Source: Saccharothrix syringae (lineage in GTDB: Bacteria > Actinomycetota > Actinomycetes > Mycobacteriales > Pseudonocardiaceae). From it: a stretch of DNA of 64,000 nucleotides. This document shows, one piece after another, positions 39,312 to 59,033 of this stretch (the first letter of the stretch is position 1; each line of letters starts with the position of its first letter). Made by a program: the position numbers and the translations under genes. The DNA lies in contig NZ_CP034550.1 of assembly GCF_009498035.1 (NCBI RefSeq), positions 5,084,001 through 5,148,000 on the forward strand. Direction: 5' to 3'. A model generated the notes under the pieces. The model searched no databases. It had not been told where the DNA came from and saw only the letters and a program-made list of their open reading frames with translations.

Positions 39312-42300
39312 ATGCGCGCGGTATTCCAGCGCGGTGGGGGTGAGCGGCCGAAGCCGGGTTTGGCGGGCGACGCGCTGCTGTCCACCAGCAGGTTCCTCAC
39401 CCGGGCCGAGGTCGCCGACGACCGGCGCGCCGTTTTCCACGACGGCGGTCGCGAGGGCGACGCGTTCTACCGGGACCGGTGGAGCCACGACAAGGTCGTG
39501 CCCTCCACGCACGGGGTGAACTGCACCGGTTCGTGCCGGTGGAACGTCTACGTCAAGGACGGGATCATCACCTGGGAGACCCAGGACGTGGACTACCCGT
39601 CCACCGGGCCCGACCGCCCCGAGTACGAGCCGCGGGGCTGCCCGCGCGGCGCTTCCTTCTCCTGGTACACCTATTCGCCGCTGCGGGTGCGCTACCCGTA
39701 CGCGCGCGGCGTCCTGGTGGAGATGTACCGCGAGGCGCGCCGGGTGCACGAGGACCCGGTGCTCGCGTGGGCGTCCGTGGTGGACGACCCGGTCAAGCGC
39801 CGCGCCTACCAGCGCGCCCGCGGCAAGGGCGGCCTGGTCCGGGTCTCCTGGGACGAGGCGGTGGAGATGGTCGCCGCCGCGCACGTGCACACCATCGCCC
39901 GCCACGGCCCGGACCGCATCGCCGGGTTCTCGCCCATCCCGGCCATGTCGATGGTCTCGCACGCGGTGGGCTCCCGGTTCATGGCGCTCATCGGCGCGCC
40001 GATGCTGTCGTTCTACGACTGGTACGCCGACCTGCCGCCCGCCTCGCCGCAGGTGTTCGGCGACCAGACCGACGTGCCGGAGTCCGCGGACTGGTGGGAC
40101 GCGGCCTACCTGGTGCTGTGGGGCTCCAACGTGCCGGTGACCCGCACCCCGGACGCGCACTTCATGACCGAGGCCCGCTACCGCGGCCAGAAGGTCGTGG
40201 TGTGCTCACCGGACTACTCCGACGCGACGAAGTTCGCCGACGAGTGGCTGGCGCCGCACCCGGGCACCGACGCGGCGCTGGCGATCGCGATGGGGCACGT
40301 GGTGCTGCGCGAGCACTTCGTCGACCGGGAGGTGCCCTTCTTCGCCGACTACGCCCGGCGGTTCACCGACCTGCCGTTCCTGGTCACCCTGGAGGAGCGC
40401 GGCGACGACCTGGTGCCCGGCAAGTTCCTCACCGCCGCCGACCTGGGCGAGGACGGGCCGGGCGCGGAGTGGAAGACCGCGGTGCTCGACGCCGACCGCG
40501 ACGTGCCGGTGGTGCCCAACGGGTCGCTGGGGTTCCGGTGGGCCGACGAGCCGGGCCGGTGGAACCTGGACCTGCGCGGCGTCACCCCGGCGCTGACCGC
40601 GCGCGGCGGGCCGGACGGCGCGGTCGAGGTGCTGCTGCCGCGGTTCGACGCCCCGGACGGCAGCGCCGGGACGGTCACCCGCGGGGTGCCGGTGCGCCGG
40701 GTGGCCGGCCGCCTGGTGACCACCGTGCTCGACCTGCTGCTGGCCCAGTACGGCGTGGCCCGCCCCGGCCTGCCCGGCCGGTGGCCCACCGGCTACGACG
40801 ACGAGGACGCGCCCGGCACGCCCGCCTGGGCGCAGCGGCTGACCGGCGTGCCCGCGGCCCGGACCACGCGCATCGCCCGCGAGTTCGCCGACACCGCGGT
40901 GCGCTCGGAGGGGCGCTGCATGATCGTCATGGGCGCGGGCACCAACCACTGGTTCCACTCCGACCTGGTCTACCGCTCGTTCCTGACGCTGCTGCTGCTC
41001 ACCGGCTGCCAGGGCCGCAACGGCGGCGGGTGGGCGCACTACGTCGGCCAGGAGAAGGTGCGGCCGCTGACCGGCTGGTCCACCCTGGCCGGCGCGCTGG
41101 ACTGGCACCGCCCGCCGCGCCAGATGATCGGCACGGCGTACTGGTACACCCACACCGACCAGTGGCGCTACGACCGGCTCACCGCCGACGGGCTGACCTG
41201 GCCGGGCGCCCGGGGCACCCTGGCCGGCCGGGCGGTGGCGGACTGCCTGGCGCAGTCGGCGCGGCTGGGCTGGATGCCGTCCTACCCCACGTTCGACCGC
41301 AACCCGCTGGACCTGTGCGCCGAGGCCGACGCCGCCGGGGAGGACCCGGTGTCGCACGTGACGGGCCGGGTGCGCGCCGGCGAGGTCGGGTTCGCCTGCG
41401 AGGACCCGGACGCCCCGGCCAACTGGCCGCGCGTGCTGACCGTGTGGCGGGCCAACCTGCTCGGCTCCTCGGCCAAGGGCAACGAGTACTTCCTGCGGCA
41501 CCTGCTGGGCGCCGACGGCAACCCCCGCGCCGAGCAGACCCCGCCCGGGCAGCGCCCGCGCACCGTGCGGTGGCGGGAGGAGGCACCGGAGGGCAAGCTG
41601 GACCTCCTGCTGGCGCTGGACTTCCGGATGACCAGCACCACGCTGTTCGCCGACGTGACCCTGCCCGCGGCCACCTGGTACGAGAAGCACGACCTGTCCA
41701 GCACGGACATGCACCCGTTCGTGCACTCCTTCAACGCCGCGGTCGACCCGCCGTGGCAGGCGCGCACCGACTTCGACGCCTTCCACGCCATCGCCCGCAG
41801 GTTCAGCGAGCTGGCGGCAACCCACCTGGGCACCCGCCGCGACCTGGTGGCCACCGCGATGCAGCACGACACCCCGGGCGAGACCGCCCAGCCCGGGGGA
41901 GTGGTGCGCGACTGGCGCGACGGGGGGTGCGAGCCGGTGCCGGGCCGCACGTTCCCCGTGCTGACCGTCGTCGAGCGCGACTACACCGCGGTCGCCGCCA
42001 GGCTGGGCGCGCTCGGGCCGCTGGTGGACAAGCTGGGCGTGACCACCAAGGGCTGGACCGCGGACGTCACCCCGGAGCTGGCCTGGCTCGCCGAGGCCAA
42101 CGGGGTCGTCCGGGGCGGGCCGGCCGCGGGCAGGCCCGCCCTGGACACCGACCGCAAGGCCGCCGAGGCCGTGCTCGCCCTGTCCGGCACCACCAACGGC
42201 CGCCTCGCCGACGAGGGCTTCCGGGCGCTGGAGGAACGCGTCGGCACCCCGCTGCGCCCTCTGGTGGAGCACCACCGCGAGCACCGGGTGACCTTCGCCG

Positions 42301-43007
42301 ACACCCGCGCCCGCCCGGCGCCCGTGGTCACCAGCCCGGAGTGGTCCGGCGACGAGTCGGGCGGCCGCCGCTACGCGCCGTTCACCATCAACGTCGAGCG
42401 CCTGAAGCCGTGGCACACCCTCACCGGCCGCCAGCACTTCTACCTCGACCACGACTGGGTGGCCGAGATCGGCGAGCAGCTGCCGGTGTACCGGCCGCCG
42501 CTGGACATGCACCGCCTGTTCGGCGAACCCCGCCTCGGGCCCAACGGCCCCGAGGTCACCGTCCGCTACCTGACCCCGCACTCCAAGTGGTCCATCCACT
42601 CCGAGTACCAGGACAACCCCATCATGCAGACCCTCTCGCGCGGCGGACCGGCGTTCTGGGTCAGCCCCGCCGACGCCGCGGCCATCGGCGTGCGGGACAA
42701 CGACTGGGTGGAGGCGGTCAACCGCAACGGCGTGGTGGTCGGGCGGGCGATCGTGTCGCACCGGATGCCCACCGGCACCGTGTTCCTCTACCACGCCCAG
42801 GAGCGCACGGTGAACGTGCCCAGGAGCGAGACCACCGGCAAGCGCGGCGGCATCCACAACTCCCTGACCCGCCTGCAGATCAAGCCGACCCACCTGGTCG
42901 GCGGGTACGGGCAGCTGTGCTTCGCCCTCAACTACTACGGGCCGACCGGCAACCAGCGCGACGAGGTCACCGTGCTGCGCCGCCGCGGCCAGGAGGTGCG
43001 GTACTGA
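39312..43007 (+). CDS. narG: Respiratory nitrate reductase, alpha subunit
   Basis: A 1231-residue molybdopterin enzyme that reduces nitrate to nitrite at the inner face of the membrane. The FS0 iron-sulfur ligands His67, Cys71, Cys75 and Cys110 are visible (STHGVNCTGSC, RGCPRGAS), and the likely molybdenum ligand Asp236 is in SFYDWYADLPPASPQ. Length is normal for NarG. No Tat signal is present, fitting a cytoplasm-facing NarG; ATG 39312 is preceded by AGGAAGGA. The stop overlaps narH (TGATG). First gene of narGHJI. Confidence 0.97.
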   Translation: MRAVFQRGGGERPKPGLAGDALLSTSRFLTRAEVADDRRAVFHDGGREGDAFYRDRWSHDKVVPSTHGVNCTGSCRWNVYVKDGIITWETQDVDYPSTGPDRPEYEPRGCPRGASFSWYTYSPLRVRYPYARGVLVEMYREARRVHEDPVLAWASVVDDPVKRRAYQRARGKGGLVRVSWDEAVEMVAAAHVHTIARHGPDRIAGFSPIPAMSMVSHAVGSRFMALIGAPMLSFYDWYADLPPASPQVFGDQTDVPESADWWDAAYLVLWGSNVPVTRTPDAHFMTEARYRGQKVVVCSPDYSDATKFADEWLAPHPGTDAALAIAMGHVVLREHFVDREVPFFADYARRFTDLPFLVTLEERGDDLVPGKFLTAADLGEDGPGAEWKTAVLDADRDVPVVPNGSLGFRWADEPGRWNLDLRGVTPALTARGGPDGAVEVLLPRFDAPDGSAGTVTRGVPVRRVAGRLVTTVLDLLLAQYGVARPGLPGRWPTGYDDEDAPGTPAWAQRLTGVPAARTTRIAREFADTAVRSEGRCMIVMGAGTNHWFHSDLVYRSFLTLLLLTGCQGRNGGGWAHYVGQEKVRPLTGWSTLAGALDWHRPPRQMIGTAYWYTHTDQWRYDRLTADGLTWPGARGTLAGRAVADCLAQSARLGWMPSYPTFDRNPLDLCAEADAAGEDPVSHVTGRVRAGEVGFACEDPDAPANWPRVLTVWRANLLGSSAKGNEYFLRHLLGADGNPRAEQTPPGQRPRTVRWREEAPEGKLDLLLALDFRMTSTTLFADVTLPAATWYEKHDLSSTDMHPFVHSFNAAVDPPWQARTDFDAFHAIARRFSELAATHLGTRRDLVATAMQHDTPGETAQPGGVVRDWRDGGCEPVPGRTFPVLTVVERDYTAVAARLGALGPLVDKLGVTTKGWTADVTPELAWLAEANGVVRGGPAAGRPALDTDRKAAEAVLALSGTTNGRLADEGFRALEERVGTPLRPLVEHHREHRVTFADTRARPAPVVTSPEWSGDESGGRRYAPFTINVERLKPWHTLTGRQHFYLDHDWVAEIGEQLPVYRPPLDMHRLFGEPRLGPNGPEVTVRYLTPHSKWSIHSEYQDNPIMQTLSRGGPAFWVSPADAAAIGVRDNDWVEAVNRNGVVVGRAIVSHRMPTGTVFLYHAQERTVNVPRSETTGKRGGIHNSLTRLQIKPTHLVGGYGQLCFALNYYGPTGNQRDEVTVLRRRGQEVRY

Positions 43008-44545
43008 TGCGGGTCATGGCTCAGCTGGCCATGGTGATGAACCTGGACAAGTGCATCGGGTGCCACACCTGCTCGGTCACGTGCAAGCAGACCTGGACCA
43101 ACCGCGGCGGCGTGGAGTACGCCTGGTTCAACAACGTCGAGACCAAGCCCGGCCAGGGCTACCCGCGCCGCTACGAGGACCAGGGGCGCTGGCGCGGCGG
43201 GTGGACCCTGCGGCACGGGCGGCTGGTGCCCGCCGCGGGCGGGCGGGTGCGGCGGCTGCTGTCGCTGTTCGCCAACCCCGGCATGCCGCACCTGGACGAC
43301 TACTACCAGCCGTGGACCTACGACTACCGCACGCTGACCGACGCCCCGCTGGGCGACGACACGCCGGTGGCCCGGCCGGTGTCCGCGGTGACCGGCGCGC
43401 CGGCCGAGGTCACCTGGGGCCCCAACTGGGAGGACAGCCTGGGCGGCGCGCCCGAGCACGCCGCGGCCGACCCGGTCGTGCAGCGGCTGGGGCGCGAGGT
43501 GCGCTTCGAGTACGAGCAGGCGTTCATGTTCTACCTGCCGCGCATCTGCGAGCACTGCCTCAACCCGTCGTGCGTGGCCTCCTGCCCGTCCGGGGCGATG
43601 TACAAGCGGTCCGAGGACGGCATCGTGCTGGTGGACCAGGACCGCTGCCGCGGCTGGCGGATGTGCGTGTCCGGCTGCCCGTACAAGAAGGTCTACTTCA
43701 ACCACAAGACCGGCAAGGCCGAGAAGTGCACGTTCTGCTACCCGCGGCTGGAGGTGGGGCAGCCGACCGTGTGCGCGGAGACGTGCGTGGGCCGGCTGCG
43801 CTACATCGGCGTGCTGCTCTACGACGCCGACCGGGTCGGCGAGGCCGCGAGCACGAAGGACGAGCAGCGCCTCTACCAGGCGCAGCTGGGCGTGTTCCTC
43901 GACCCGCACGACCCCGCCGTGGTGCGGGAGGCGCAACGGGCGGGCATCCCGCACGACTGGATCACCGCCGCGCGGCGCTCCCCGGTGCACGAGCTGATCT
44001 GCCGCCACCGCGTCGCGCTGCCGCTGCACCCGGAGTACCGCACCATGCCCATGGTCTGGTACGTGCCGCCGCTGTCGCCGGTGGTCGACGCGCTGGCCGG
44101 CACCGGCTTCGACGGCGAGGACTCCGGCAACCTGTTCGGCGCCATCGACACCCTGCGCATCCCGCTGGACTACCTCGCGGGCCTGTTCACCGCGGGCGAC
44201 CCGGAACCGGTCCGGATGGCGCTGCGCAGGCTGGCCGCCATGCGGTCGCACATGCGCGCGGTCAACCTGGGCGAACCGCCCGACCCCGCCGGCCCGGCCC
44301 GGGTCGGCATGGACGCGGGCTCGGTCGAGGCCATGTACCGGCTGCTGGCCGTGGCCAAGTACGAGGACCGGTACGTCATCCCCACCGCCGCCGTCGGCGA
44401 CGCGCACGACCTGGAGGGCATCGCCACCACGTGCGCGGTGGGCGGGGACGGCGGCGCTGCCGACGGGAGCACCGACCTGTTCGTCTGGCGCGACGGGGAA
44501 CGCCCCGCCGGCCTGTTCCCCACGCTGCGCCGGGAGGCCCCGTGA
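43007..44545 (+). CDS. narH: Respiratory nitrate reductase, beta subunit
   Basis: A 512-residue electron-transfer subunit with four iron-sulfur clusters, joining NarI hemes to NarG. Ferredoxin-type Cys groups are clear: CIGCHTCSVTCKQ near residue 16, CEHCLNPSCVASCPSG in the middle, the special CRGWRMCVSGCP (Trp in place of a Cys, marking the [3Fe-4S] cluster) and KCTFCYPR with CAETC. ATG 43007 overlaps the narG stop and has AGGAGG in front. The gene is complete and its stop overlaps narJ. Confidence 0.97.
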   Translation: MRVMAQLAMVMNLDKCIGCHTCSVTCKQTWTNRGGVEYAWFNNVETKPGQGYPRRYEDQGRWRGGWTLRHGRLVPAAGGRVRRLLSLFANPGMPHLDDYYQPWTYDYRTLTDAPLGDDTPVARPVSAVTGAPAEVTWGPNWEDSLGGAPEHAAADPVVQRLGREVRFEYEQAFMFYLPRICEHCLNPSCVASCPSGAMYKRSEDGIVLVDQDRCRGWRMCVSGCPYKKVYFNHKTGKAEKCTFCYPRLEVGQPTVCAETCVGRLRYIGVLLYDADRVGEAASTKDEQRLYQAQLGVFLDPHDPAVVREAQRAGIPHDWITAARRSPVHELICRHRVALPLHPEYRTMPMVWYVPPLSPVVDALAGTGFDGEDSGNLFGAIDTLRIPLDYLAGLFTAGDPEPVRMALRRLAAMRSHMRAVNLGEPPDPAGPARVGMDAGSVEAMYRLLAVAKYEDRYVIPTAAVGDAHDLEGIATTCAVGGDGGAADGSTDLFVWRDGERPAGLFPTLRREAP

Positions 44546-45132
44546 GCACCAGGGTCCACCACCAGGTGGCGGCGCACTGCCTGCACTACCCCGACGCGGT
44601 GGGCGGGGTGCTGCCGCTGCTCGGCCGCTGCCTGGCCGAGGCACCCGACGCCGGCCTGGCCGGGCTGGTCGACCACCTGCGGCGCACGCCCGCGGTCGAG
44701 GCCGCCCGCCACTACGTCGAGGTGTTCGACACCAAGGCCGACCGGTGCCTGCACCTGACCTGGTACACCGACGGCGACACCCGCCGCCGCGGCGGCGCCC
44801 TGGCGGCGCTCAAGCAGCGCTACCGGGAGCACGGCTACCTGCTCGACCCCGGCGAGCTGCCCGACTACCTGCCGGTGCTGCTGGAGTTCGCCGCCCACAC
44901 CGGCGAGCCCGGGGTGCGGCTGCTGGCCTCCTACCGCCCGGCGCTGGAGCTGCTGCACCGCAACCTGCTGCCCCTGGGCACCCCGTACGCGCCCGCCGTG
45001 GCCACCGTGCTGGCCACGCTGCCGGTCCGCGACGACGCCCGCCCCGTCACGGGCGGCGCACCGGTCGAGCGGGTCGGGCTCGAACCGGTCCTGCTCGGCT
45101 ACCCCACCGGACCCCGGGAGCGGACACCATGA
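44542..45132 (+). CDS. narJ: Nitrate reductase molybdenum cofactor assembly chaperone
   Basis: A 196-residue chaperone that binds NarG and helps insertion of the molybdenum cofactor before membrane attachment; not part of the final enzyme. The helical NarJ core is recognised from VFDTKADRCLHLTWYTDGD, the ELPDYLPVLLEFA motif and LELLHRNLLPL. GTG 44542 overlaps the narH stop (GTGA) and the stop overlaps narI (ATGA), so translation is coupled on both sides. Confidence 0.93.
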   Translation: MSTRVHHQVAAHCLHYPDAVGGVLPLLGRCLAEAPDAGLAGLVDHLRRTPAVEAARHYVEVFDTKADRCLHLTWYTDGDTRRRGGALAALKQRYREHGYLLDPGELPDYLPVLLEFAAHTGEPGVRLLASYRPALELLHRNLLPLGTPYAPAVATVLATLPVRDDARPVTGGAPVERVGLEPVLLGYPTGPRERTP

Positions 45133-45851
45133 CCCTGGACCTGCTGCTGTGGGCGGTGCTGCCCTACGTCACGATCACCGTGCTCGTCGGCGGCACCGCC
45201 TGGCGCTACCGGTACGACCGGTTCGGCTGGACCACCCGCAGCTCCCAGCTGCACGAGTCCCGGCTGCTGCGGGTGGGCAGCCCGCTGTTCCACCTCGGGC
45301 TGCTGCTCGTGCTGGCCGGCCACGTCGGCGGCCTGCTCGTGCCCGCGTCGGTGACCCGGTGGCTGGGCCTGCACGACGAGGCGTACCACCTGGTCTCGCT
45401 CACCGCGGGCGGCCTGGCGGGCGCCGCCGCCCTGGTCGGGCTCGGCGTGCTGCTCCACCGGCGGCTGCGCACCCCGGCCGTGCGCGCGGCCACCAGCCGA
45501 GGCGACCGGCTCACCTTCCCGCTGCTGGCCCTGGTGCTGCTGCTGGGCATGACCGCCACCGTGCTGCTCAATGGCGTGGGCGGCGGGTACGACTACCGCG
45601 AGACCGTCTCGCCGTGGGTGCGCGGGGTGCTGCTGCTGCACCCGGACCCGGCGCTGATGCACGACGTGCCCCTGGTCTACCGGCTGCACGCGCTGGCGGC
45701 GATGGCGTTGTTCGCGCTGTGGCCGTTCAGCCGGCTCGTGCACGCCTTCAGCGCCCCGCTGCACTACCTCGTGCGCCCCTACATCGTCTACCGCGGTCGC
45801 GACGACCGCCTGGCCGCCCGGCCCGCACCCCGCGGCTGGGACGACCGGTGA
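45129..45851 (+). CDS. narI: Respiratory nitrate reductase, gamma subunit (cytochrome b)
   Basis: A 240-residue membrane protein with five hydrophobic helices that oxidises menaquinol and carries two b hemes. The first helix (LLLWAVLPYVTITVLVGG), WRYRYDRFGWTTRSSQ loop, helix with FHLGLLLVLAGHVGG (heme His), and the last helix YRLHALAAMALFALWPFSRLVHAF with the second pair of His ligands all match NarI. ATG 45129 overlaps narJ. The stop overlaps the HPP gene (GTGA). Confidence 0.95.
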   Translation: MTLDLLLWAVLPYVTITVLVGGTAWRYRYDRFGWTTRSSQLHESRLLRVGSPLFHLGLLLVLAGHVGGLLVPASVTRWLGLHDEAYHLVSLTAGGLAGAAALVGLGVLLHRRLRTPAVRAATSRGDRLTFPLLALVLLLGMTATVLLNGVGGGYDYRETVSPWVRGVLLLHPDPALMHDVPLVYRLHALAAMALFALWPFSRLVHAFSAPLHYLVRPYIVYRGRDDRLAARPAPRGWDDR

Positions 45852-46375
45852 CGCGCCTGCGCGCCGCGCTGCGCCCGGCGGCCGGGGCCCTGCTCACCAC
45901 CGCCGTGCTCGCCGCCCTGGCCGTGCTCACCGCCCAACCGCTGATGTTCCCCTCCCTGGGACCCACCGCGTACCTGCTGTTCGCCACCCCGACCCACCCG
46001 GCCGCCAGCCCGCGCAACACCGTCGCCGGCCACCTGATCGGCCTGCTGGCGGGCGCGGCGGGCCTGGCCGCGTTCGACCTGTGGGACACCGCGCCCCACC
46101 TGGACCACCTGACGTGGGCCCGCGCCGGGGCCGTCGCCCTGGCGCTGACCTGCACGTGCGGCGGCATGGCGTGGTCGGGCCTGCCGCACCCGCCGGCCGG
46201 GGCCACGACCCTCATCGTCGCCCTCGGCCTGCTGCGGACACCGCTGCAACTGGTGGAGATCATGGTCGGGGTGGTGGTGCTGGTGGTCGTGGCGGGCACG
46301 GTCAACCGGCTGACCGGCGTGCCCTACCCCCTGTGGTCGGTGGAGGCGCCCGCCAGGGAGCGGTCGTTGCGCTGA
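45848..46375 (+). CDS. HPP-family integral membrane protein, possible nitrite carrier
   Basis: A 175-residue membrane protein with about four helices and the HPP-family pattern FPSLGPTAYLLFATPTHPAASPRNTVAGHLIG, then PHPPAGATTLIVALG. HPP proteins of cyanobacteria and chloroplasts have been described as nitrite transporters. Here it is the fifth gene of narGHJI, coupled by a GTGA overlap, and no narK-type carrier is in the window, so export or exchange of nitrite is a reasonable inference. Its end overlaps the convergent MmyB-type gene by 52 bp. Confidence 0.8.
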   Translation: MTRLRAALRPAAGALLTTAVLAALAVLTAQPLMFPSLGPTAYLLFATPTHPAASPRNTVAGHLIGLLAGAAGLAAFDLWDTAPHLDHLTWARAGAVALALTCTCGGMAWSGLPHPPAGATTLIVALGLLRTPLQLVEIMVGVVVLVVVAGTVNRLTGVPYPLWSVEAPARERSLR

Positions 46376-47217
46376 GGGTCCCACGAGGCCAGCAGGCGCA
46401 GGGCCCGCTCGGACGGCGAGCCGGGCTCGGCGGTGTAGATGGTGAGGGTGAGGCCGGGTTCGGAGGCCATCTCCAGGCCCTCGTAGGCGAGGGTGAGGTC
46501 ACCGACGACGGGGTGGTGGAAGTCCTTGGTGCCGGTGCCGTGGTGGCGGACGTCGTGCGCGCCCCAGCGGGTGCGGAAGGCGTCGCTGCGGGTGGACAGC
46601 TCGCCGACGAGGTCGTGCAGCCCCTTGTCGTGCGGGTTGCGGCCGGCCTCGACGCGCAGGATGGCGACGGAGACGTCCGCGGCGAGGTCCCAGTCCGGGA
46701 AGAACCGGTGGGAGGCCGGGTCGAGGAACTGGAACCGGGCGAGGTTGGGCGGTCGCTGCGGGTCGGCGTAGAGGGGAGCGTAGAAGGCCCGCGCCAGGGA
46801 GTTCACGGCGAGCAGGTCGAGGCGGCCGTTGCGGACGAACGCGGCACCCGCGGTGACCGCGTCCAGGGTCCACTGGAGGCTCGGGTGCGGGGTCCACTGC
46901 CTGGACCTGGTCCGCCGCGGCCCGAGCGCGCTCGTGCCGTTCGCGGCCCGGGCCAGGTCGAACAGGTGCGCGCGCTCGGCGTCGTCGAGGCGCAGCGCGC
47001 GGGCGACGGCGTCCAGCACCCCGGTCGACACCCCGGCGAGCGCGCCGCGCTCCAGCTTGGCGTAGTACTCGATGCTCACCCCGGCCAGCGCGGCGACCTC
47101 GGTGCGGCGCAGGCCCGGGACGCGGCGGTTGGTCCCGGCGGGCAGGCCGGCCGACTGCGGTGAGATCTTGGCCCTGCGCGAGACCAGGAACTCGCGAACC
47201 TCCGAGCGGTTGTCCAC
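46324..47217 (-). CDS. MmyB-type XRE transcriptional regulator
   Basis: A 297-residue regulator: N-terminal XRE helix-turn-helix (residues about 8-80, NRRVPGLRRTEVAALAGVSIEYYAKLERG) followed by an MmyB-like PAS-type ligand domain (WTLDAVTAGAAFVRNGRLDLLAVN, HDLVGELSTRSDAFRTRWGAHDVR, FHHPVVGDLTLAYE). This family usually controls a divergent oxidoreductase gene, and here a zinc alcohol dehydrogenase starts 202 bp away in the other direction. GTG 47217 fits the conserved start. Its 3' end overlaps the HPP gene. Confidence 0.85.
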   Translation of the reverse strand: MDNRSEVREFLVSRRAKISPQSAGLPAGTNRRVPGLRRTEVAALAGVSIEYYAKLERGALAGVSTGVLDAVARALRLDDAERAHLFDLARAANGTSALGPRRTRSRQWTPHPSLQWTLDAVTAGAAFVRNGRLDLLAVNSLARAFYAPLYADPQRPPNLARFQFLDPASHRFFPDWDLAADVSVAILRVEAGRNPHDKGLHDLVGELSTRSDAFRTRWGAHDVRHHGTGTKDFHHPVVGDLTLAYEGLEMASEPGLTLTIYTAEPGSPSERALRLLASWDPQRNDRSLAGASTDHRG

Positions 47218-47418
47218 CCCACCACGGTAGGCCCCGCGGCCCGCCCGAGGGGTGCCCTGCCGGTACACCTCCCAGCCGGAACTCCCCCGTCGCGGGCGCC
47301 GGTGGTGTGCTGGACCGGTCACCCCTCCAGGGTGACTTCCGCCATGGCGCACCGCGGACCGGGTTCCGATCGCGCCGGGCGGGCACCCCCGGGAAAAATG
47401 CCTTCGAGGAGAACCACC

Positions 47419-48441
47419 ATGCTCGGTGTTGTCCTGCACGCCCCCGGCGACGTCCGGGTCGAGCAGCGCGAGGACCCGCGGGTCCTCGCACCGACGGACG
47501 CGGTCATCCGGCTGGCCGCGACCTGCGTCTGCGGTTCGGACCTGTGGAGCTACCGCGGCGTCAACGACGTGACCTCGCCCACCCCGATGGGGCACGAGTA
47601 CGCCGGGGTCGTCGAGGAGGTCGGCGACGAGGTCCGCGACGTCAAGCCGGGCCAGTTCGTGGTCGGCTCCTTCTTCGCCTCCGACAACACCTGCGAGATC
47701 TGCCGGTCCGGGTTCCAGACCTCCTGCGTGAACCGCGTGCCGGTCGGCGCGGGCGGCGCGCAGGCGCAGTACCTGCGGGTACCGCTGGCCGACGGCACCC
47801 TGGTCGCCACGCCCGAGATGCCCTCGGACGACCTGGTGCCGAGCCTGCTGGCGGCCTCGGACGTGCTGGGCACGGGCTGGTTCGCCGCCGTGGCCGCCGA
47901 GGTGCGGCCGGGCGCGACGGTGGCCGTGGTCGGCGACGGCGCGGTCGGCCTGCTCGGCGTGCTGGCCGCGCGGGAGCTGGGCGCGGAGCGGATCATCGCG
48001 ATGAGCCGGCACGAGTCCCGGCAGAAGCTGGCCACCGAGTTCGGCGCCACCGACATCGTCACCGGGCGCGGCGACGAGGGCGTGGCCGCGGTCAAGGAGC
48101 TGACCGGCGGGCTGGGCGCGCACAGCGTGATCGAGGCGGTCGGCACCCAGGAGTCGATGATGCAGGCCATCCGCTCCACCCGCGCCGGCGGCGCGGTGGG
48201 CTACGTCGGCGTGGCCCACGACGTCGCCCTGCCGGGCGAGGAGCTGTTCTACTCCCACGTGAAGCTGCTCGGCGGCCCGGCACCGGTGCGCCGGTTCCTG
48301 CCCGACCTGATCGACCGCGTCTGGAGCGGTGCGATCGACCCGGGCAGGGTCTTCGACCTCACCCTGCCGCTCGACCGGGCCGCCGAGGGGTACCGGGCGA
48401 TGGACGAGCGCCGCGCCATCAAGGCCCTGTTGACGGTGTGA
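47419..48441 (+). CDS. Zinc-dependent alcohol dehydrogenase (MDR family)
   Basis: A 340-residue medium-chain dehydrogenase. Catalytic zinc ligands are Cys in CVCGSDLW and GHE in PMGHEYAG; the structural-zinc lobe is reduced (CEICRSGFQTSC), and the Rossmann motif is VAVVGDGAVGLLGVLAA. The C-terminus GYRAMDERRAIKALLTV is typical for this subgroup. ATG 47419 has GAGGAG in front. Divergent from the MmyB-type regulator, which probably controls it. Substrate is unknown; many such pairs act on small alcohols or aldehydes. Confidence 0.88.
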   Translation: MLGVVLHAPGDVRVEQREDPRVLAPTDAVIRLAATCVCGSDLWSYRGVNDVTSPTPMGHEYAGVVEEVGDEVRDVKPGQFVVGSFFASDNTCEICRSGFQTSCVNRVPVGAGGAQAQYLRVPLADGTLVATPEMPSDDLVPSLLAASDVLGTGWFAAVAAEVRPGATVAVVGDGAVGLLGVLAARELGAERIIAMSRHESRQKLATEFGATDIVTGRGDEGVAAVKELTGGLGAHSVIEAVGTQESMMQAIRSTRAGGAVGYVGVAHDVALPGEELFYSHVKLLGGPAPVRRFLPDLIDRVWSGAIDPGRVFDLTLPLDRAAEGYRAMDERRAIKALLTV

Positions 48442-48468
48442 GCCGCCCGCTCGGCGGCCCGGAGCGCG

Positions 48469-48615
48469 GCTGGCGCCGGGTACCGCGCGCTCGACACGAT
48501 CGTGGCGTTCGCGCGCGAGCACGGGGTGGCGGTGGTCGCGCCGGAGGAGCCGGCCGCCCGGGTCGACGCGGTGGTCAGCCCGGGCGTCGACCACGGCGAT
48601 CTCGGCTTCCGGTGA
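48469..48615 (+). other. Possible C-terminal gene remnant upstream of P450
   Basis: A frame ending at TGA 48613-48615 encodes a plausible C-terminal piece (YRALDTIVAFAREHGVAVVAPEEP, then DAVVSPGVDHGDLGFR) with no start or ribosome site. It fills most of the 277-bp spacer between the alcohol dehydrogenase and P450 genes. Nothing else is seen there except a possible TGTAAT -10 element about 40 bp before the P450. Confidence 0.25.
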
Positions 48616-48718
48616 GGCGACCCCTTTCGGGTGAAGCGGGTGGCGCGCGCTTCTCCGCCGCCGGTGCCGGTGGTTGTAATGGTCGGGCATCGGGGGAACT
48701 CTTGGGGGAGAGTGTTCG

Positions 48719-49834
48719 ATGAGGACACTGGACAGGTACCGCTTTCGACGAGACCCGCTCGCCTTCGTCGAAGACCTCCGCCGCCGCGCACCGGGCGGCG
48801 TGCTCCGGCTCCCGTGGGGCGGCTGGTGCGTGAGCGACCCGGACCTGGCGCAGGTGTTGTTGCGCGGCCCGGAGTTCAACGGCGGCGCCTCGGACTTCTT
48901 CGGCTCGCTGCTGCCGACGCGCGAGGCCCAGGTGGCGCTCGGCCACGCGGTGCGCGACGTGCTGCGGTCACGCCTGGCCGAGTACCGCGACCGGCTGGCC
49001 GCCGAGGTGGCCGCGCTGCCCGCGGCCGGCCGGTGGCCGGCGACCGGGGTGCGGCTCGTGCACCGCTGCCTGGCCGACGTGCTGCTGCACCCCGGCACGG
49101 CGCCGGCGACGCGGCGGTCGCTGGAGCGGGCCGCGAGCGGCGGCCTCGTGGTCCGGCCCCGGCGCCTCTGGTCGCGGGTGCGCGCGGAAGCGTTGCGCGG
49201 CAGGCTGATCGCGGCGCTGACCGACGAGGTGGGACGCCGGAGGGGGCGCGTCGGCGAGCCGCGGGACGTGCTGGACGCGGTGGTCGGCGCGTGCCCCGCG
49301 GGCCTCCCGGACCGGACCGCGGCCCGGCTGTACCTGGTGCTGTACCGGTCGATCGTGGCGCCCGTCGGCTGCTCGCTGGCGTGGTCGGTGCTGCTGGCCT
49401 GCCTGCACCACGCGTCGGGCTCGCCGTGGCCGTGGCCGGTCGACGCGGTGGTGCGCGAGGCGTTGCGGCACCGGCCGATGGCGTGGATGGTCGGCCGCGG
49501 CGTGGTGCGCCCCACCGAGTTCGGCGGTGTCGCCCTGCGCCCCGGCGAGGTCCTGTCGGTCTGCCCGTACCTGCTGCACCACGACGAGCGCCACTGGGCC
49601 GAGCCTGGCGCGTTCCGGCCCGAGCGCTGGGCCGGACCGGGGCGGCGCGGGCCCTACCTGCCGTTCGGCGTGGGTCCGTTCGCGTGCGTCGGGGCGTCGG
49701 TGGCGCAGGCGCTGACCACCGAGGCGTTGGCCGCGCTCACCGACGACGCGCGCCTGGCCGTCACCGGGGGCGACACGCGCCCGGTCATCACCGACGGCGC
49801 GGTGCCGCGCCCGTTCACCCTGCACCGCAGCTGA
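48719..49834 (+). CDS. Cytochrome P450
   Basis: A 371-residue P450, slightly shorter than usual bacterial members. Heme-binding loop FGVGPFACVG with Cys323, K-helix ExxR as Glu247-Ala-Leu-Arg250 (VVREALRHRP) and the later FRPERW are clear. The I-helix region (LVLYRSIVAPVGCSLAW) lacks the usual acid-Thr oxygen-activating pair, so it may use an atypical mechanism. No ferredoxin gene is adjacent. ATG 48719 follows GGGGGAGAG. It is followed after 46 bp by a 20-codon ORF and then a perfect terminator, so the two form one transcript. Tailoring of that peptide is the main hypothesis. Confidence 0.88.
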   Translation: MRTLDRYRFRRDPLAFVEDLRRRAPGGVLRLPWGGWCVSDPDLAQVLLRGPEFNGGASDFFGSLLPTREAQVALGHAVRDVLRSRLAEYRDRLAAEVAALPAAGRWPATGVRLVHRCLADVLLHPGTAPATRRSLERAASGGLVVRPRRLWSRVRAEALRGRLIAALTDEVGRRRGRVGEPRDVLDAVVGACPAGLPDRTAARLYLVLYRSIVAPVGCSLAWSVLLACLHHASGSPWPWPVDAVVREALRHRPMAWMVGRGVVRPTEFGGVALRPGEVLSVCPYLLHHDERHWAEPGAFRPERWAGPGRRGPYLPFGVGPFACVGASVAQALTTEALAALTDDARLAVTGGDTRPVITDGAVPRPFTLHRS

Positions 49835-49880
49835 CCCCGCACCGGGGTGCCCGACGTTCGTGGACAGGGGGTGAACAGCC

Positions 49881-49943
49881 ATGGCCGCAGTGCTGCGACG
49901 CGTCTTCCGGACCGCGCCGGCCCGCCGCTGGAACTGGGAGTAG
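49881..49943 (+). CDS. 20-residue peptide, candidate P450-modified RiPP precursor
   Basis: A 20-codon ORF from ATG 49881, with GGGGG ribosome site about 10 nt upstream, encoding MAAVLRRVFRTAPARRWNWE. It begins 46 bp after the P450 stop and ends 13 bp before a perfect 18-bp-armed palindrome, so it lies inside the P450 transcript. The peptide has a basic amphipathic leader-like part and a C-terminal Trp-Asn-Trp-Glu. In known P450-modified RiPPs (biarylitides, tryptorubin-type atropopeptides, cihunamides) tiny precursors with two or more aromatic residues at the end lie beside a P450 that cross-links them. Here the order is reversed and the end is acidic. Product assignment is inference. Confidence 0.5.
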   Translation: MAAVLRRVFRTAPARRWNWE

Positions 49944-49956
49944 GAGCGGGCCCGAA

Positions 49957-49992
49957 CCGGTGGCCCGGGCGGTCGACCGCCCGGGCCACCGG
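49957..49992 (+). terminator. Perfect 36-bp palindromic terminator after mini-ORF
   Basis: 36 bp with perfect two-fold symmetry (arms 49957-49974 and 49975-49992), able to fold into a very stable hairpin just after the 20-codon ORF. It closes the P450 transcript and separates it from the convergent phosphotransferase gene. Confidence 0.88.
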
Positions 49993-50077: not shown

Positions 50078-50956
50078 TCACGTCCGCGCGACCAGTTCGG
50101 CGTGCACCTCGTGCAACCGTCGCACCGCCTCGCGCGCCCGCGCGCGGTCCGGTGCTTCGAGCAGGAACACCACGGCGAGCATCACCGCGGCGTCGAGCCG
50201 GTGGACGAGCAGCGCCGGGTCGTCCGCGGGCCAGTGCCCGCCCGCCGCCTCGTAGCCGGCCCGGGTGCCGGCCGCGTCCAGGCCGTTGTCGGGCAGCCGG
50301 GCGAACTCCTCGAACCGGCCCAGCTCCAGCACCGGGTCGCCGACCAGGGCGTTGGACCAGTCCAGCAGGGCGGTCACCGCGCCGTCCGCGCAGCGCAGGT
50401 TCGGCCGGCGCACGTCCAGGTGCAGCAGGCTGTTCGCGGTGCGGTCGGCGAGCAGCGCGGCCAGCAGATCCTGCGGCGGGGGAGCGGGCAGCTCGGCGAC
50501 CTCCGCGGCCGCCCGCCAGCGGCGGACCAGGCGCGCGGGCACCGCCCCGTCGGCCGGGGGGCGCAGGCCGTCGACGGGGACGCGGTGCAGCCGGGCGAGC
50601 AGGCCGCCCAGGGCGACCGGGTCGGGTCGCGAACCGTCGTCGGGCACGTACCGGCTGATGAGCACGTCCGGTGCCGACCCGGTGCCGGGCACCAGCTCCA
50701 GCGGTTCGGCGACGGGCAGCCCCTCGGCCGCGAGCCGCGCGGTGACCTGCCGCTCCCACGTGAGCAGGGCCCGGGTGTCCACCAGGGGGTCGTTGGCGTT
50801 GGACTGGAACCGGCCGCCCGAGGACACCCGCAGCACCACCGGCTCGCCCGCCGCCGTCCGGGCTTGGTGGACGGTGAACTCCAGCCCGCTGCCGATCCGG
50901 CGCAGGCCGGTCAGCCCGCGTTCCCGGGCAACCCGCTCGGTGGTTCCGCGTGCCAT
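50078..50956 (-). CDS. APH-family phosphotransferase
   Basis: A 292-residue kinase-fold enzyme of the aminoglycoside phosphotransferase / homoserine kinase-like family. Catalytic loop LLHLDVRRPNLR (HxDxxxxN) and metal-binding Asp in LLDWSNALVGDP are complete, and the N-lobe is seen as PVVLRVSSGG. Start is uncertain: ATG 50956 is chosen; ATG 50977 and GTG 50992 are possible, none with strong ribosome site. Could phosphorylate an antibiotic or a small metabolite; nothing nearby decides. Confidence 0.8.
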   Translation of the reverse strand: MARGTTERVARERGLTGLRRIGSGLEFTVHQARTAAGEPVVLRVSSGGRFQSNANDPLVDTRALLTWERQVTARLAAEGLPVAEPLELVPGTGSAPDVLISRYVPDDGSRPDPVALGGLLARLHRVPVDGLRPPADGAVPARLVRRWRAAAEVAELPAPPPQDLLAALLADRTANSLLHLDVRRPNLRCADGAVTALLDWSNALVGDPVLELGRFEEFARLPDNGLDAAGTRAGYEAAGGHWPADDPALLVHRLDAAVMLAVVFLLEAPDRARAREAVRRLHEVHAELVART

Positions 50957-51026
50957 GGTCGGATTGTGGCCGATCATCCCGCCGGGGAACACGTCGTTGT
51001 GCCGTCGGTGGCGGGAATACCGGCCA

Positions 51027-54023: not shown

Positions 54024-54191
54024 ACCGGATCGAATCGAACCATTGCCGATGAATACGAATATTGCTCTTGGGGGAGATGGTCGGGGGCGTCGGAGTTCGG
54101 CTACGCTCGCGCGGAATCAACAGCACGTGGAATTCACCCAGCAGTTCCGCGCCGGTTAGCGCGGTTGTCGTGCCTTTGCCTGAGGAGGGAC

Positions 54192-56342
54192 GTGGCAGTT
54201 CCGGCCGGCGCGACCGTCGCGCTGTTGGATGACGTGTCCTGCACGTACGCCGGTCTCCGCCGCGTACGGCGGTGGACCATGGTCTTCGCCTGGTTCTGCG
54301 GTGTCCTGTTCGCCGTGGAGCTGGCGCTCATGGGCCGGACGCCCGTCAGCGGCGTCGCGGCGCTGGTCGCGGGGCTGGTGCTGTGCGGGTGGCTGGTGCG
54401 GCCCGGGAAGGACGGCTGGGGCGTCGCGGTCGTCGAGACCGCCGTCATCGTGACCGGCACCCTGGTGCTGCCGGTGCCGCAGCCGGTGCTCGGCTTCCTG
54501 TTCGGCGTCACCGTCCGGCGGATGCTGCTCGACGGCGAGTACCGCTTCCCGGTGCGCGCCGCGCTGCCCCTGCTCGGCTACGTCGGCGGTTTCGGCGCGC
54601 TGGTGGTCAGCGGTCGGGTCGACTTCGGGCCGGACACCGCCGCACCGGCGCTGATGCCGCTGGTGGGCCTGGTCGTCGAGTCGGTGGCGCTGTACGAGAC
54701 CGCGCGCGCCGCGCGCCTGGCCGACGCCGCCCGGTACCGCGCCGACCGCGCGCACCGGGCCGCGGAGGCCGCCGTGCGGGCCAGCCCGGTGGGGCTGGTG
54801 CTGCTCGACGGCGAGGGCAGGCCGGAGCTGTTCAACGACCGCGCCGCCGACCTGCTCGGGTGGGACGGGTCCGGCGCGGTGCCGTGCCCGCACGGCCCCG
54901 ACATCACCGCCTGCGCGGAGGGCTGCGCCCGACCCGGGCCGGAACCGGTGGAGCTGCGGCTCGACCGCGCCGGCACCGCGCTCACCCTGCACCCGGTCGA
55001 CGTCTCCGACGCCGACGGGGCGGGCCGGGTGATGGTCGCCGTCGTCGACGTCACCGCGCGGCGGCGGTGGGAGGACGAGCTGCGCGAGCGCTCCGAGCAC
55101 GACGAGCTGACCGGCCTGGTCAGCCGCCGCCACTTCCTCGAACTGGTGGATCGGGCGCTGGCCTCGGGCGACGACGTCGCGCTCCTGCTGGTCGACCTGG
55201 ACCGGTTCAAGGAGGTCAACGACGTCGAGGGCCACCAGGCGGGCGACCGGCGGCTGGTCGAGGCGGCCCGGCGGCTGCGCGGTGCCACCGGCGGGCAGGA
55301 CGTGGTGGCGCGGCTGGGCGGCGACGAGTTCGCCGTGCTGACCGCGCCCGGCGACGGCGGCGTGGACCTCGCGGACCGCGTGCTGGCCGCCCTGGCGCCG
55401 GTCAGCCGGGCGAGCGCCGGCGTGGCCGTGCCCGGTTGGGAGGGCACCGGCCGCACGTCGCGCGACCTGCTGCGCGACGCCGACGTGGCGATGTACGTGG
55501 CCAAGCGCGAGGGCGGCGGCGGGGTCCGGCGGTTCCGCCGCGAGATGGGCGAGGACGTCGCCGTGCGGCAGCGGGACAAGGCCGACCTGCGCGACGCGCT
55601 GTCCAACGACGAGCTGGTCCTGCACTACCAGCCGATCATCGACCTGGCCTCGGCGCGCACCACGCACGCCGAGGCGCTGGTGCGGTGGCAGCGCCCCGGC
55701 CGCGGGCTGCTGGGGCCGGACCGGTTCATCGGGCTGGCCGAGGAGACCGGGCTGATCGTGCCGCTGGGCACGCACGTGCTGCGCACCGCGTGCGGTCAGG
55801 CGGTGCACTGGCAGGACCGCGGCCACCGCCTCGGCGTGGCCGTCAACGTCTCGCCCGGCCAGCTCTCCGGCGAGCAGTTCCCGCACCAGGTCGGCGAGCT
55901 GCTGGGTGCCACCGGCCTGGAGCCGGGGCGGCTGACCGTGGAGGTCACCGAGTCGGTGTGGGCCGACGAGACCGCGATGCGGGTGCTGATGGACGTGCGC
56001 GAGCTGGGCGTGCGGGTGGCGCTGGACGACTTCGGCACCGGCTACTCCTCGCTGAACTACCTGCGCCGCTACCCGTTCGACCTGGTCAAGATCGACAAGT
56101 CGTTCACCGACGGCCTGGGCGAGGACAGGCGGACCGAGGGCGTGGTGCGGTGCATCATCGACCTGGCCGCCGTGCTGGGCGCCCGCACCGTCGCCGAGGG
56201 CGTGGAGACGCCGACGCAGGCGCACTGGCTGCGCGACGCCGGCTGCGACTACCTCCAGGGCTACCTGTTCGGCAAGCCCGACCTGCTGGAGAACTGGCGG
56301 CCCGAGCTGCTCACCGGCTCCCAGCCGCTGCTGCGCGCCTGA
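54192..56342 (+). CDS. Membrane GGDEF-EAL cyclic-di-GMP protein
   Basis: A 716-residue signalling protein. The first about 185 residues hold several membrane helices, followed by a degenerate PAS-like domain (AAVRASPVGLVLLDGEGRPELFNDRA). The GGDEF domain is intact at the active site (LGGDEFAVL) and has a DLDRFKEVND metal loop; the EAL domain has EALVRWQRP and DDFGTGYSSLNYLRR, with a DxVKIDKSF motif. Both cyclase and phosphodiesterase activity are possible. GTG 54192 follows GAGGAGGGA. Its end overlaps the LacI gene by 32 bp. Confidence 0.92.
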   Translation: MAVPAGATVALLDDVSCTYAGLRRVRRWTMVFAWFCGVLFAVELALMGRTPVSGVAALVAGLVLCGWLVRPGKDGWGVAVVETAVIVTGTLVLPVPQPVLGFLFGVTVRRMLLDGEYRFPVRAALPLLGYVGGFGALVVSGRVDFGPDTAAPALMPLVGLVVESVALYETARAARLADAARYRADRAHRAAEAAVRASPVGLVLLDGEGRPELFNDRAADLLGWDGSGAVPCPHGPDITACAEGCARPGPEPVELRLDRAGTALTLHPVDVSDADGAGRVMVAVVDVTARRRWEDELRERSEHDELTGLVSRRHFLELVDRALASGDDVALLLVDLDRFKEVNDVEGHQAGDRRLVEAARRLRGATGGQDVVARLGGDEFAVLTAPGDGGVDLADRVLAALAPVSRASAGVAVPGWEGTGRTSRDLLRDADVAMYVAKREGGGGVRRFRREMGEDVAVRQRDKADLRDALSNDELVLHYQPIIDLASARTTHAEALVRWQRPGRGLLGPDRFIGLAEETGLIVPLGTHVLRTACGQAVHWQDRGHRLGVAVNVSPGQLSGEQFPHQVGELLGATGLEPGRLTVEVTESVWADETAMRVLMDVRELGVRVALDDFGTGYSSLNYLRRYPFDLVKIDKSFTDGLGEDRRTEGVVRCIIDLAAVLGARTVAEGVETPTQAHWLRDAGCDYLQGYLFGKPDLLENWRPELLTGSQPLLRA

Positions 56343-57450: not shown

Positions 57451-57807
57451 GTGCGGCGCAATTCGGCGAAGTTGGCGGTCGGGGACGCCCCGGACGCGAC
57501 TTCCCGGACCGGCACGCAGCGCCGGGCCTGCGCGGCGGCGCGGGAGGCCGACCTGCCCGTCGGGGTGGTGCGCGAGGTCAACGGGCTGCCCGGGGGCTGC
57601 GCGCTCCACCTGGTGCCGTCGGTCGAGCAGTTCACCGCGCCGACCTGGCACGAGACCTTCGGCGGGGCCGGTCGGCCGGTACGACGAGCGCCCCGTCGGC
57701 CGCCGGCCGACGGGGCGCTGCACGGCCTCGACGGCGAACCGCTCACCGAGGTGGAGTCGGCCCCCTGCGGCATCGTGGTGCTCGGACCGCGGAGGAGCGA
57801 GGCATGA
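57451..57807 (+). pseudogene. Glycosidase C-terminal remnant before manD
   Basis: An open frame of 118 codons with patchy similarity to the end of GH42-type beta-galactosidases: [17 protein letters not shown] and, at the end, [19 protein letters not shown], which resembles the closing beta-strand domain. The catalytic part is missing and the middle is scrambled by basic Pro/Arg residues, so internal deletions or frame changes are likely. Its TGA overlaps the ATG of the ManD gene (ATGA), which may still allow coupled translation. Family assignment is tentative. Confidence 0.4.
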
Positions 57808-59033
57808 GGATCGAGTCGGTCGAGGTCGTGGTGACCTGCCCGGGGCGCAACTTCGTCACCCTGCGGGTCACCACCGACGACGGCCTCACCGGGTGGGGCG
57901 ACGCCACCCTCAACGGCCGGGAGCTGGCCGTGGAGGCGTACCTGCGCGAGCACGTGGCACCGCTGCTGCTCGGGCGGGACGCGGGCGCGATCGAGGACAC
58001 CTGGCAGTACCTGTACCGGGGCGCCTACTGGCGGCGCGGACCGGTGACCATGGCCGCCATCGCCGCGGTGGACACCGCGCTGTGGGACATCAAGGCCAAG
58101 GCCGCCGGGATGCCGCTCTACCAGCTGCTCGGCGGCGCGTCGCGGGTCGGTGCGCTGGCCTACGGGCACGCGTCGGGGCGCGACCTGCCCGAGCTGTTCG
58201 ACTCCATCCGGCTGCACCTGGAGCGCGGCTTCCGGGCGATCCGGGTGCAGACCGGCATCCCGGGCCTGGCCACCGTCTACGGCGTGGCCGCGTCCGCGGC
58301 GGGCGGCGGCGAGCGCTACGACTACGAACCGGCCCGGCCGACCGCGCTGCCGGTGGAGGAGACCTGGGACACCCGCGCCTACCTGCGGCACGTGCCGGGC
58401 GTGTTCGAGGCGGTGCGCCACGAGTTCGGGCCGGAGCTGCCGCTGCTGCACGACGGGCACCACCGGATGACCCCGGTCGAGGCGGCCCGGCTGGGCAGGG
58501 CCCTGGAGCCCTACGACCTGTTCTGGCTGGAGGACGCCACCCCCGGCGAGGACCAGGCGGCGCTGCGGCTGGTCCGGCAGCACACCACCACGCCGCTGGC
58601 CATCGGCGAGGTGTTCAACAGCGTGCACGACTACACGACTCTGCTGAGCGAGCGGCTGATCGACTACGTGCGGTCGGCCGTGACGCACACCGGCGGGGTG
58701 ACCGGGTTGAAGAAGGTGCTGGACCTGGCGTCGGTGTACGGGGTCAGGTCGGGCATCCACGGGCCCACCGACATCTCGCCGGTCGGCATGGCGGCGGCGC
58801 TGCACCTGGACATCGCGGTGCACAACTTCGGCATCCAGGAGTACATGCCGCACACCGCCGAGACGTTGGAGGTGTTCCGCACGTCGTTCACCTTCGCCGA
58901 CGGCCTGCTGCACCCGTCGGACGCGCCGGGCCTGGGGGTGGAGCTGGACCTGGGGGCGGCGGCGCGGTTCCCGTACCGCGCCGCCTACCTGCCGGTGAAC
59001 CGGCTGGCCGACGGCACCCTGCACGACTGGTGA
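57804..59033 (+). CDS. manD: D-mannonate dehydratase (ManD/RspA-type, enolase superfamily)
   Basis: A 409-residue enolase-superfamily acid-sugar dehydratase. It begins with [27 protein letters not shown], then [17 protein letters not shown], the ManD-type VQTGIPG segment, and the metal-ligand series Asp in LLHDGHHR, Glu in WLEDATPGE and Glu in AIGEVFNS, followed by [12 protein letters not shown] and FGIQEYMPH. Such enzymes turn D-mannonate (sometimes D-gluconate) into 2-keto-3-deoxygluconate. ATG 57804 overlaps the preceding frame. With the LacI gene it forms a hexuronate-type catabolic locus. ManD versus other RspA-like activity cannot be decided here. Confidence 0.85.

Follow-up and report, generated by a model that had tools for sequence, protein, structure and literature searches.

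A cytochrome P450 and a conserved 63-nt open reading frame of Saccharothrix syringae, a module that very probably joins two tryptophans of a 20-residue peptide

A cytochrome P450 encoded in the genome of Saccharothrix syringae very probably joins two tryptophans of a 20-residue peptide whose last residues are Trp-Asn-Trp-Glu, and the 63-nt open reading frame (ORF) for this peptide, located behind the P450 gene, very probably encodes a macrocyclic peptide. Both lie in a stretch of 64,000 nucleotides from this actinomycete (10.9-Mb contig NZ_CP034550.1, positions 5,084,001 to 5,148,000), which was analysed as a whole and is referred to as the window; the coordinates of the features are compiled in Table 1. 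We assume with good confidence that they constitute a two-gene RiPP module that is cotranscribed up to a palindrome, in which Trp17 and Trp19 would be joined in a leader-guided reaction by the bonds known from axy-type enzymes, and the leader would be removed by a protease of the host.

Table 1. Features of the P450-precursor locus in the window
Feature	Position	Strand	Basis
Cytochrome P450 gene, 371 aa, ATG start, predicted peptide cross-linking enzyme	48719..49834	+	Pfam PF00067
Ribosome-binding site GGGGGTGA of the precursor gene	49867..49874	+	Sequence; homologous loci usually GGAGGTGA
Precursor peptide gene, MAAVLRRVFRTAPARRWNWE plus stop codon TAG	49881..49943	+	Sequence; ORF kept in homologous loci
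Leader region MAAVLRRVFRTAPARR, presumed extent	49881..49928	+	LRR box, fixed distance to core Trp
Core region Trp17-Asn18-Trp19-Glu20, presumed N-terminal limit	49929..49940	+	Trp(i)/Trp(i+2) in 33/65 precursors; WNW in A. xylanica (L047)
Perfect 36-bp palindrome, which probably terminates the transcripts of both convergent genes	49957..49992	.	Sequence and folding

The succession of P450 gene, 46-nt spacer, 20-codon ORF, 13 nt and 36-bp palindrome had been described in an original prediction made on this DNA, and all of its coordinates proved correct on recheck. The palindrome is the longest zero-loop palindrome of the window, the next one measuring 22 bp, and is predicted to fold into a stable hairpin (-52.4 kcal/mol, z -4.25); a T run is absent from it. 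Because the next gene, coding for an APH-family kinase (50078-50992, Pfam), is oriented convergently, the palindrome probably ends both transcripts. In the homologous loci, the 60 nt following the stop codon of the ORF fold with z <= -2 in 30 of 36 cases (median -3.7), while the 45 nt preceding the ORF do so in 2 of 36. Since stable folding is predicted 3' of the stop codon and not 5' of the ORF, a single transcript ending past the ORF is the likely layout. The claim that P450 and precursor ORF share one transcript therefore stands as likely, not as the fact as which it had been put forward.

Seven ATG-started ORFs in the whole window are 10-40 aa long and have a strong Shine-Dalgarno sequence. 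Only the one encoding MAAVLRRVFRTAPARRWNWE ends in W-x-W, and its ribosome site GGGGGTGA differs by one base from the usual site of the family, GGAGGTGA. In 36 of the 37 distinct loci having a close P450 homologue, the P450 gene is followed by a short ORF that has a ribosome site and encodes a similar leader and a core Trp; these loci span the genera Saccharothrix, Actinosynnema, Amycolatopsis, Streptoalloteichus, Streptomyces, Kitasatospora, Embleya, and Streptosporangium. The ORF starts 19-65 nt past the end of the P450 match and overlaps the 3' end of the P450 gene in several loci. This agrees with the original prediction of a P450-modified RiPP whose precursor lies 3' of the P450; homologues lacking a conserved short ORF in their neighborhood, which it had named as the finding that would speak against it, were searched for with the result just given.

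The close loci were sampled from 40 genomes of relatives, plus 31 loci from one-per-species genomes, and L003, L005, L006, L007, and L010 were left out of the 37 as duplicates of L031, L033, L035, L042, and L052. Ten further loci came from two families, that of the window and that of genome G772, and a survey of 150 genomes of the genus holding Nocardia transvalensis (genome G435) showed a short precursor ORF behind 19 of 21 P450 matches. The precursor loci compiled amount to 65 in total, a number which refers to loci and not to distinct sequences, some of the precursors being identical. Duplicates, defined by the same contig coordinates or by the same precursor and organism, were dropped from these later counts (L062-L064, L066-L071, L073-L075, L077, L078, L093, L095-L097, L119, L122, L123, L125, and L127), as were L136, a duplicate of L060, and L156, a weak match of 114 bits outside the family. 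The partial P450 copies L016 and G131 C1:7146951 were left out of the ORF check, and the P450 matches of L155 and L094 are partial or split. At E <= 1e-30, and with the sister clade (see below) counted in, the P450 profile has matches in 32 of 390 genomes in the window's family, in 20 of 394 in the family of G772, and in 4 of 394 genomes sampled across the class, with the window's own among the last.

The leaders of the precursors follow the form (L/M/I/A/V)(R/H/K)R(I/V/L)(F/L/I/V), usually continued by a K/Q/T/A-P/T pair and then the Trp. This box was detected in 35 of 36 precursors, with L051 outside the pattern, and the core Trp follows 12 residues past the first box residue in 34 of these 35, the distance of 14 in L038 being caused by a two-residue insertion. 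The close homologue from N. transvalensis (L060 = L136) has kept the ribosome site, and the ORF behind its P450 contains no Trp, which we read as a lost or different precursor. A codon comparison of 25 W-x-W-type precursors, which is a weak test, gave 30% synonymous differences in frame versus 25% and 7% in the shifted frames. As judged from this conservation, the 63-nt ORF is a conserved gene of the sort which gene annotation overlooks. Its shortness, the weakness of the codon test and the lack of a recurring protease or exporter beside it in the flanks analysed would also suit a regulatory or incidentally translated peptide next to a P450 acting on a small molecule. We regard this as very improbable: attenuation of P450 expression is hardly expected from an ORF located 3' of the P450 gene and just before a terminator-like hairpin, the register of the Trp is fixed while the core residues vary with the enzyme tree, and the chemistry of two relatives has been reported (PMC11002830).

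The P450 of the window is matched by the Pfam p450 profile (PF00067) with an E-value of 4.2e-20, and 199 of the candidate proteins scored are homologous to it at E <= 0.001. The ExxR motif (E247, R250) and the heme-ligating Cys (C323) are invariant across 24 aligned sequences, and the I-helix stretch, RSIVAPVGCSLAWSVLLACL in the window, lacks the acid-Thr pair when the alignment is read by eye, which is consistent with the features of the enzyme listed in the original prediction. Its predicted structure is a P450 fold with a mean pLDDT of 83.3 and values under 50 in the heme loop (residues 316-322). A structure search with this model returned the general P450 fold only, and no RiPP P450 was recognized among the best 50 structure matches listed by either of two programs, which does not imply that none exists. 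The best NCBIfam match is the RiPP P450 ApyO (NF050147), which spans only residues 241-350 and reaches 68.5 bits versus a cut-off of 525; the best E-value of NF050147 among the 24 aligned family members is 1.7e-20. The best PDB sequence match, 9ulw ("Cytochrome P450," 376 residues, E 5.6e-47), is the only one among the 60 PDB matches listed that covers nearly the whole query. No paper naming 9ulw was found in the literature search, and the entry is given no weight here. On the minus strand, a 1063-aa open frame (46327-49515) runs through much of the P450 gene. Because its Pfam support is confined to the C-terminal part (HTH and MmyB-like domain, from about residue 800), the portion antisense to the P450 is best explained as a spurious frame of GC-rich DNA.

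A view on the core regions shows two classes of precursors. In 33 of the 65, the next aromatic residue beyond position i+1 is a Trp at i+2, with the cores WNWE, WNWA, WNW, WYWY, WFWQ, WFWV, WFWG, WIWH, WIWP, WKW, and WDW; together with the identical WNW of Amycolatopsis xylanica, this argues for the W-N-W(-E) end as the core, as had been proposed. In the other 32, the next aromatic residue beyond i+1 follows at i+4 to i+7, in long cores such as WDPPVWL (S. catenulae), WEPDVWL, WNPKEHW, WNPKDPW, WNINHTW, WSSSGSDWE, WFGTGLNWYYGG, and WNHTWEW, and a W-x4-Y core (e.g., WNPAEYG) is present in 16 of the 19 Nocardia-group loci. The long-core loci (L045, L049-L051, L053-L058, L061, L124, L126, and L137-L155) share the leader and the P450 family with the W-x-W members. 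The strings RRWYWY, RRWNWE, RRWNWA, QRWIWH, KPARRW, and RRIFTNK are absent from the literature searched.

A maximum-likelihood tree of the P450s was calculated from 57 rows, 51 of them from the family (including six loci of the Nocardia-group survey and L060) and six from the sister clade; L058, L094, and 13 of the 19 Nocardia loci were left out, and L085 was flagged as a long branch. The core classes require four changes on this tree, close to the minimum of three, compared to a mean of 21.7 after shuffling of the labels, and none of 200 shufflings was as low, a test which asks only about the clustering of the core classes. Such a co-segregation of core class and P450 tree is expected of an enzyme-substrate pair. 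Inside the long-core branch, a single outlier has a W-x-W core, namely the S. iconiensis copy L059. The whole family is fully supported (100/100), but the forks parting the W-x-W from the long-core rows are weak (81/82 and 90/11), and the split should therefore be regarded as a tendency and not as a proven pair of clades. Despite the common leader and enzyme family, the ring of the W-x-W members cannot be formed in the long-core and Nocardia branches. We tentatively consider, with slightly less than even confidence, that a single family of leaders and P450s covers rings of several sizes, with the W-x-W members forming the reported Trp-Trp pyrroloindoline and the sister branch, with its second aromatic residue four to seven positions on, larger or chemically different macrocycles. 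If this is true, the window enzyme and its nearest relatives represent the small-ring end of a tunable series. With 65 precursor loci beside their P450s and a core class that follows the enzyme tree, the P450 residues setting ring size and bond become directly testable.

The chemistry of the W-x-W members may be deduced from two relatives. As outlined in a 2024 review, P450s of A. xylanica and Streptoalloteichus hindustanus are reported to form one bond between C3 of Trp(i) and N1 of Trp(i+2) and another between C2 and the backbone N of Trp(i) (PMC11002830). The enzymes named there are A. xylanica axy WP_218134608.1, S. hindustanus SHF91911.1, and Streptomyces spectabilis WMW29964.1, the last of which was not located in the present analysis, and Hu et al. 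(JACS 2023, 10.1021/jacs.3c07416) and Liu et al. (Angew 2024, 10.1002/anie.202314046) are cited for the axy-type enzymes. The module is present in both of the former species, with the precursors MLRRIFGTKPALRWNW in A. xylanica (L047) and MTAMLRRIFSTKPSRRWDW in S. hindustanus (L043). Within about 1.5 kb on each side of the 23 P450 matches of both genomes (profile A1, E <= 1e-5), the only short ORFs ending in W-x-W are the family's own with WDW and WNW; the same survey also yielded a WYYYHHI precursor twice (L098 and L110, adjacent P450s), two ORFs in L114, one of them a KSLK precursor, and in L104 a W-x-x-W ORF that looks like a chance occurrence. From the species names and their standing as sole candidates among the P450s examined, L047 and L043 are presumed to be the published enzymes. 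The window P450 is 58% and 60% identical to those of A. xylanica and S. hindustanus over 374-376 residues, and all three fall into one 51-row family (100/100), with a support of 90/11 for the narrower W-x-W grouping. As far as the sequences allow such an assignment, we assign the module of the window to the axy-type W-x-W P450-RiPPs as a new member of a kind whose chemistry is already reported in relatives. The suggestion of a new branch fails, because P450s with a Trp(i)-Trp(i+2) link had been in print by 2023-24 for two species bearing the module (PMC11002830). Neither of the features taken as unusual in this context is so, as a precursor behind the P450 is the rule in the P450 family, and the acidic end WNWE recurs in two Saccharothrix loci (L033 and L035).

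The following sequence of events is proposed. The P450 gene and the precursor gene 46 nt downstream would be transcribed together up to the palindrome, and the leader (LRRVF..xP) would bind to the P450 and thread Trp17-Asn18-Trp19-Glu20 towards the heme, where a two-electron oxidation (-2 H) would join Trp17 and Trp19. If the window P450 acts like those reported from A. xylanica and S. hindustanus, its bonds would run from C3 of Trp17 to N1 of Trp19 and from the backbone N of Trp17 onto its C2, yielding a pyrroloindoline. A host protease encoded elsewhere would cut off the leader; the order of these steps, with the P450 acting on the full precursor before proteolysis, is adopted from other P450-RiPPs, and leader removal by a general protease has been proposed for atropopeptides (PMC11450843). 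The computed [M+H]+ values of the expected products are 632.246 for WNWE-2H, 788.347 for RWNWE-2H, and 503.204 for WNW-2H. The same module may also set a different bond on WNWE, such as Trp N1 to an aryl carbon, C-C, a bond to Glu or an extra hydroxylation. The bond types of RiPP P450s are described to shift with small changes of the substrate, ApyO giving C-C, N-C or C-O products (PMC13192836), and several bond types in laurentirubin B are ascribed to one or two P450s (PMC11450843); moreover, the window enzyme shares just 58-60% identity with the two enzymes of reported product, and the tree resolves the inner forks among the W-x-W rows only in part. Considering that it groups with the reported enzymes among the W-x-W rows, albeit with weak deep support, and that A. 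xylanica has the identical WNW core, we rate another bond as unlikely, but as the most serious alternative to the pyrroloindoline, which is the preferred product.

The module appears to be minimal. Clustering by blastp of 620 GC3-filtered ORFs of at least 110 aa from the flanks (up to 6 kb, 1.5 kb for part of the loci and less at contig ends) gave no widely recurring neighbor gene other than the P450 and its antisense ORFs, and no protease, transporter or exporter recurring widely beside the module. One cluster of 11 loci consists of ORFs at or beside the sister-clade P450s, and every other cluster listed comprises three or four loci, some stemming from duplicate or closely related loci and others representing common families in unrelated loci. 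Among these are a sensor-kinase-like cluster (L034, L036, L048, and L054) as well as ABC-ATPase-like, acetyltransferase-like, and zinc-alcohol-dehydrogenase-like ones, all named by eye. A wider gene cluster was rejected, as no neighbor besides the P450 is widely shared in these flanks. Elsewhere in the window, Pfam domains indicate respiratory nitrate reductase-like genes (39312-45851, molybdopterin oxidoreductase and nitrate reductase gamma subunit domains), a GGDEF-EAL protein (54165-56342), and a mandelate racemase/muconate lactonizing type enzyme (57804-59033). The sole plasmid record found is a 5.7-Mb replicon of Embleya sp. NBC_00888, classed as a mobilizable plasmid, which encodes a P450 of the family with 62% identity (NZ_CP108785.1:1717726-1718826); the gene table, which is incomplete, contains no feature beneath this match.

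A sister clade of P450s with 33-37% identity is found in L012-L015, L080-L091, L098, and L128-L135. Its precursor, of the form ...LN(I/V)R...WYxYHHI, lies directly 3' of the P450 in most loci, L083 being one in which none was seen. Two loci, L098 and L087, were inspected for what follows the precursor, and both have a further P450-like ORF of 405-432 aa there; the second ORF beside L098 is matched by the P450 profile with an E-value of 9e-19 (L110). A. xylanica additionally carries a KSLK-bearing precursor, MKALMRKFKPEKSLKAYAWYIWW, directly before a P450 (L114), and hence contains three P450-RiPP-like loci in one strain, namely the KSLK, WNW, and WYYYHHI modules.

The original prediction had likened the module to atropopeptides, biarylitides, and cihunamides, the defining features of which are missing from the precursor. 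Atropopeptides such as tryptorubin and amyxirubin are likewise produced by two-gene modules with a small precursor and a P450 acting on Trp. They are described to contain a KSLK-type leader motif and a mostly hexapeptide core with W2 (PMC11450843), the usual core pattern being W-x-x-W or W-x-x-Y (PMC11450843, PMC12352619). A module of the typical tryptorubin type would fit the single P450 with a tiny Trp-ending precursor and the pyrroloindolines that also occur in atropopeptides (PMC11450843). In none of the relatives does i+3 hold the next aromatic residue beyond i+1; the WYWY cores nevertheless have a Tyr at i+3 and thus hold W-x-x-Y besides W-x-W. A KSLK-type motif is present in none of the 65 precursors, the window's included, and the WNWE core lacks W-x-x-W/Y, so that membership was rejected. 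Furthermore, the window precursor follows its P450, whereas that of the A. xylanica KSLK locus precedes it, and the P450 of the latter, the one locus compared, is distant from that of the window, aligning only locally (33% over 136 residues). Atropopeptide membership is thus hardly credible, even less so than the regulatory peptide considered above.

Cihunamides and strecintide ("bitryptides") resemble the predicted window product in a Trp-Trp C-N cross-link made by one P450. Their link is reported to connect Trp N1 to C7' (PMC13250620), in cihunamide between Trp residues at i and i+3 (PMC11002830), and this type was rejected because of the i, i+2 spacing in the window. The aminopyruvatide P450 ApyO is described to modify a pair of aromatic residues, one apart, that is followed by an acidic residue at the C-terminus (PMC11117315, PMC13192836), an arrangement also seen in WNWE; membership was rejected from the score against the ApyO equivalog cut-off given above. 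Biarylitides also involve a single P450, a tiny gene and an aromatic cross-link one residue apart, but they derive from a five-residue precursor with aromatic residues at positions 3 and 5 (PMC13417212) and were rejected, the window precursor having 20 residues, a leader and two Trp. Cyclic peptides cross-linked in these ways are under study as drug leads (PMC12352619, PMC13383641). The closest correspondence is to the axy-type systems, in which the precursor likewise follows the P450 directly, shows the leader pattern of the window and has a C-terminal Trp(i)/Trp(i+2) pair, with the WNW core of A. xylanica equal to that of the window and WDW in S. hindustanus; the window precursor differs from them by its additional C-terminal Glu and by an Ala in place of the Lys found in many relatives (TAP instead of TKP).
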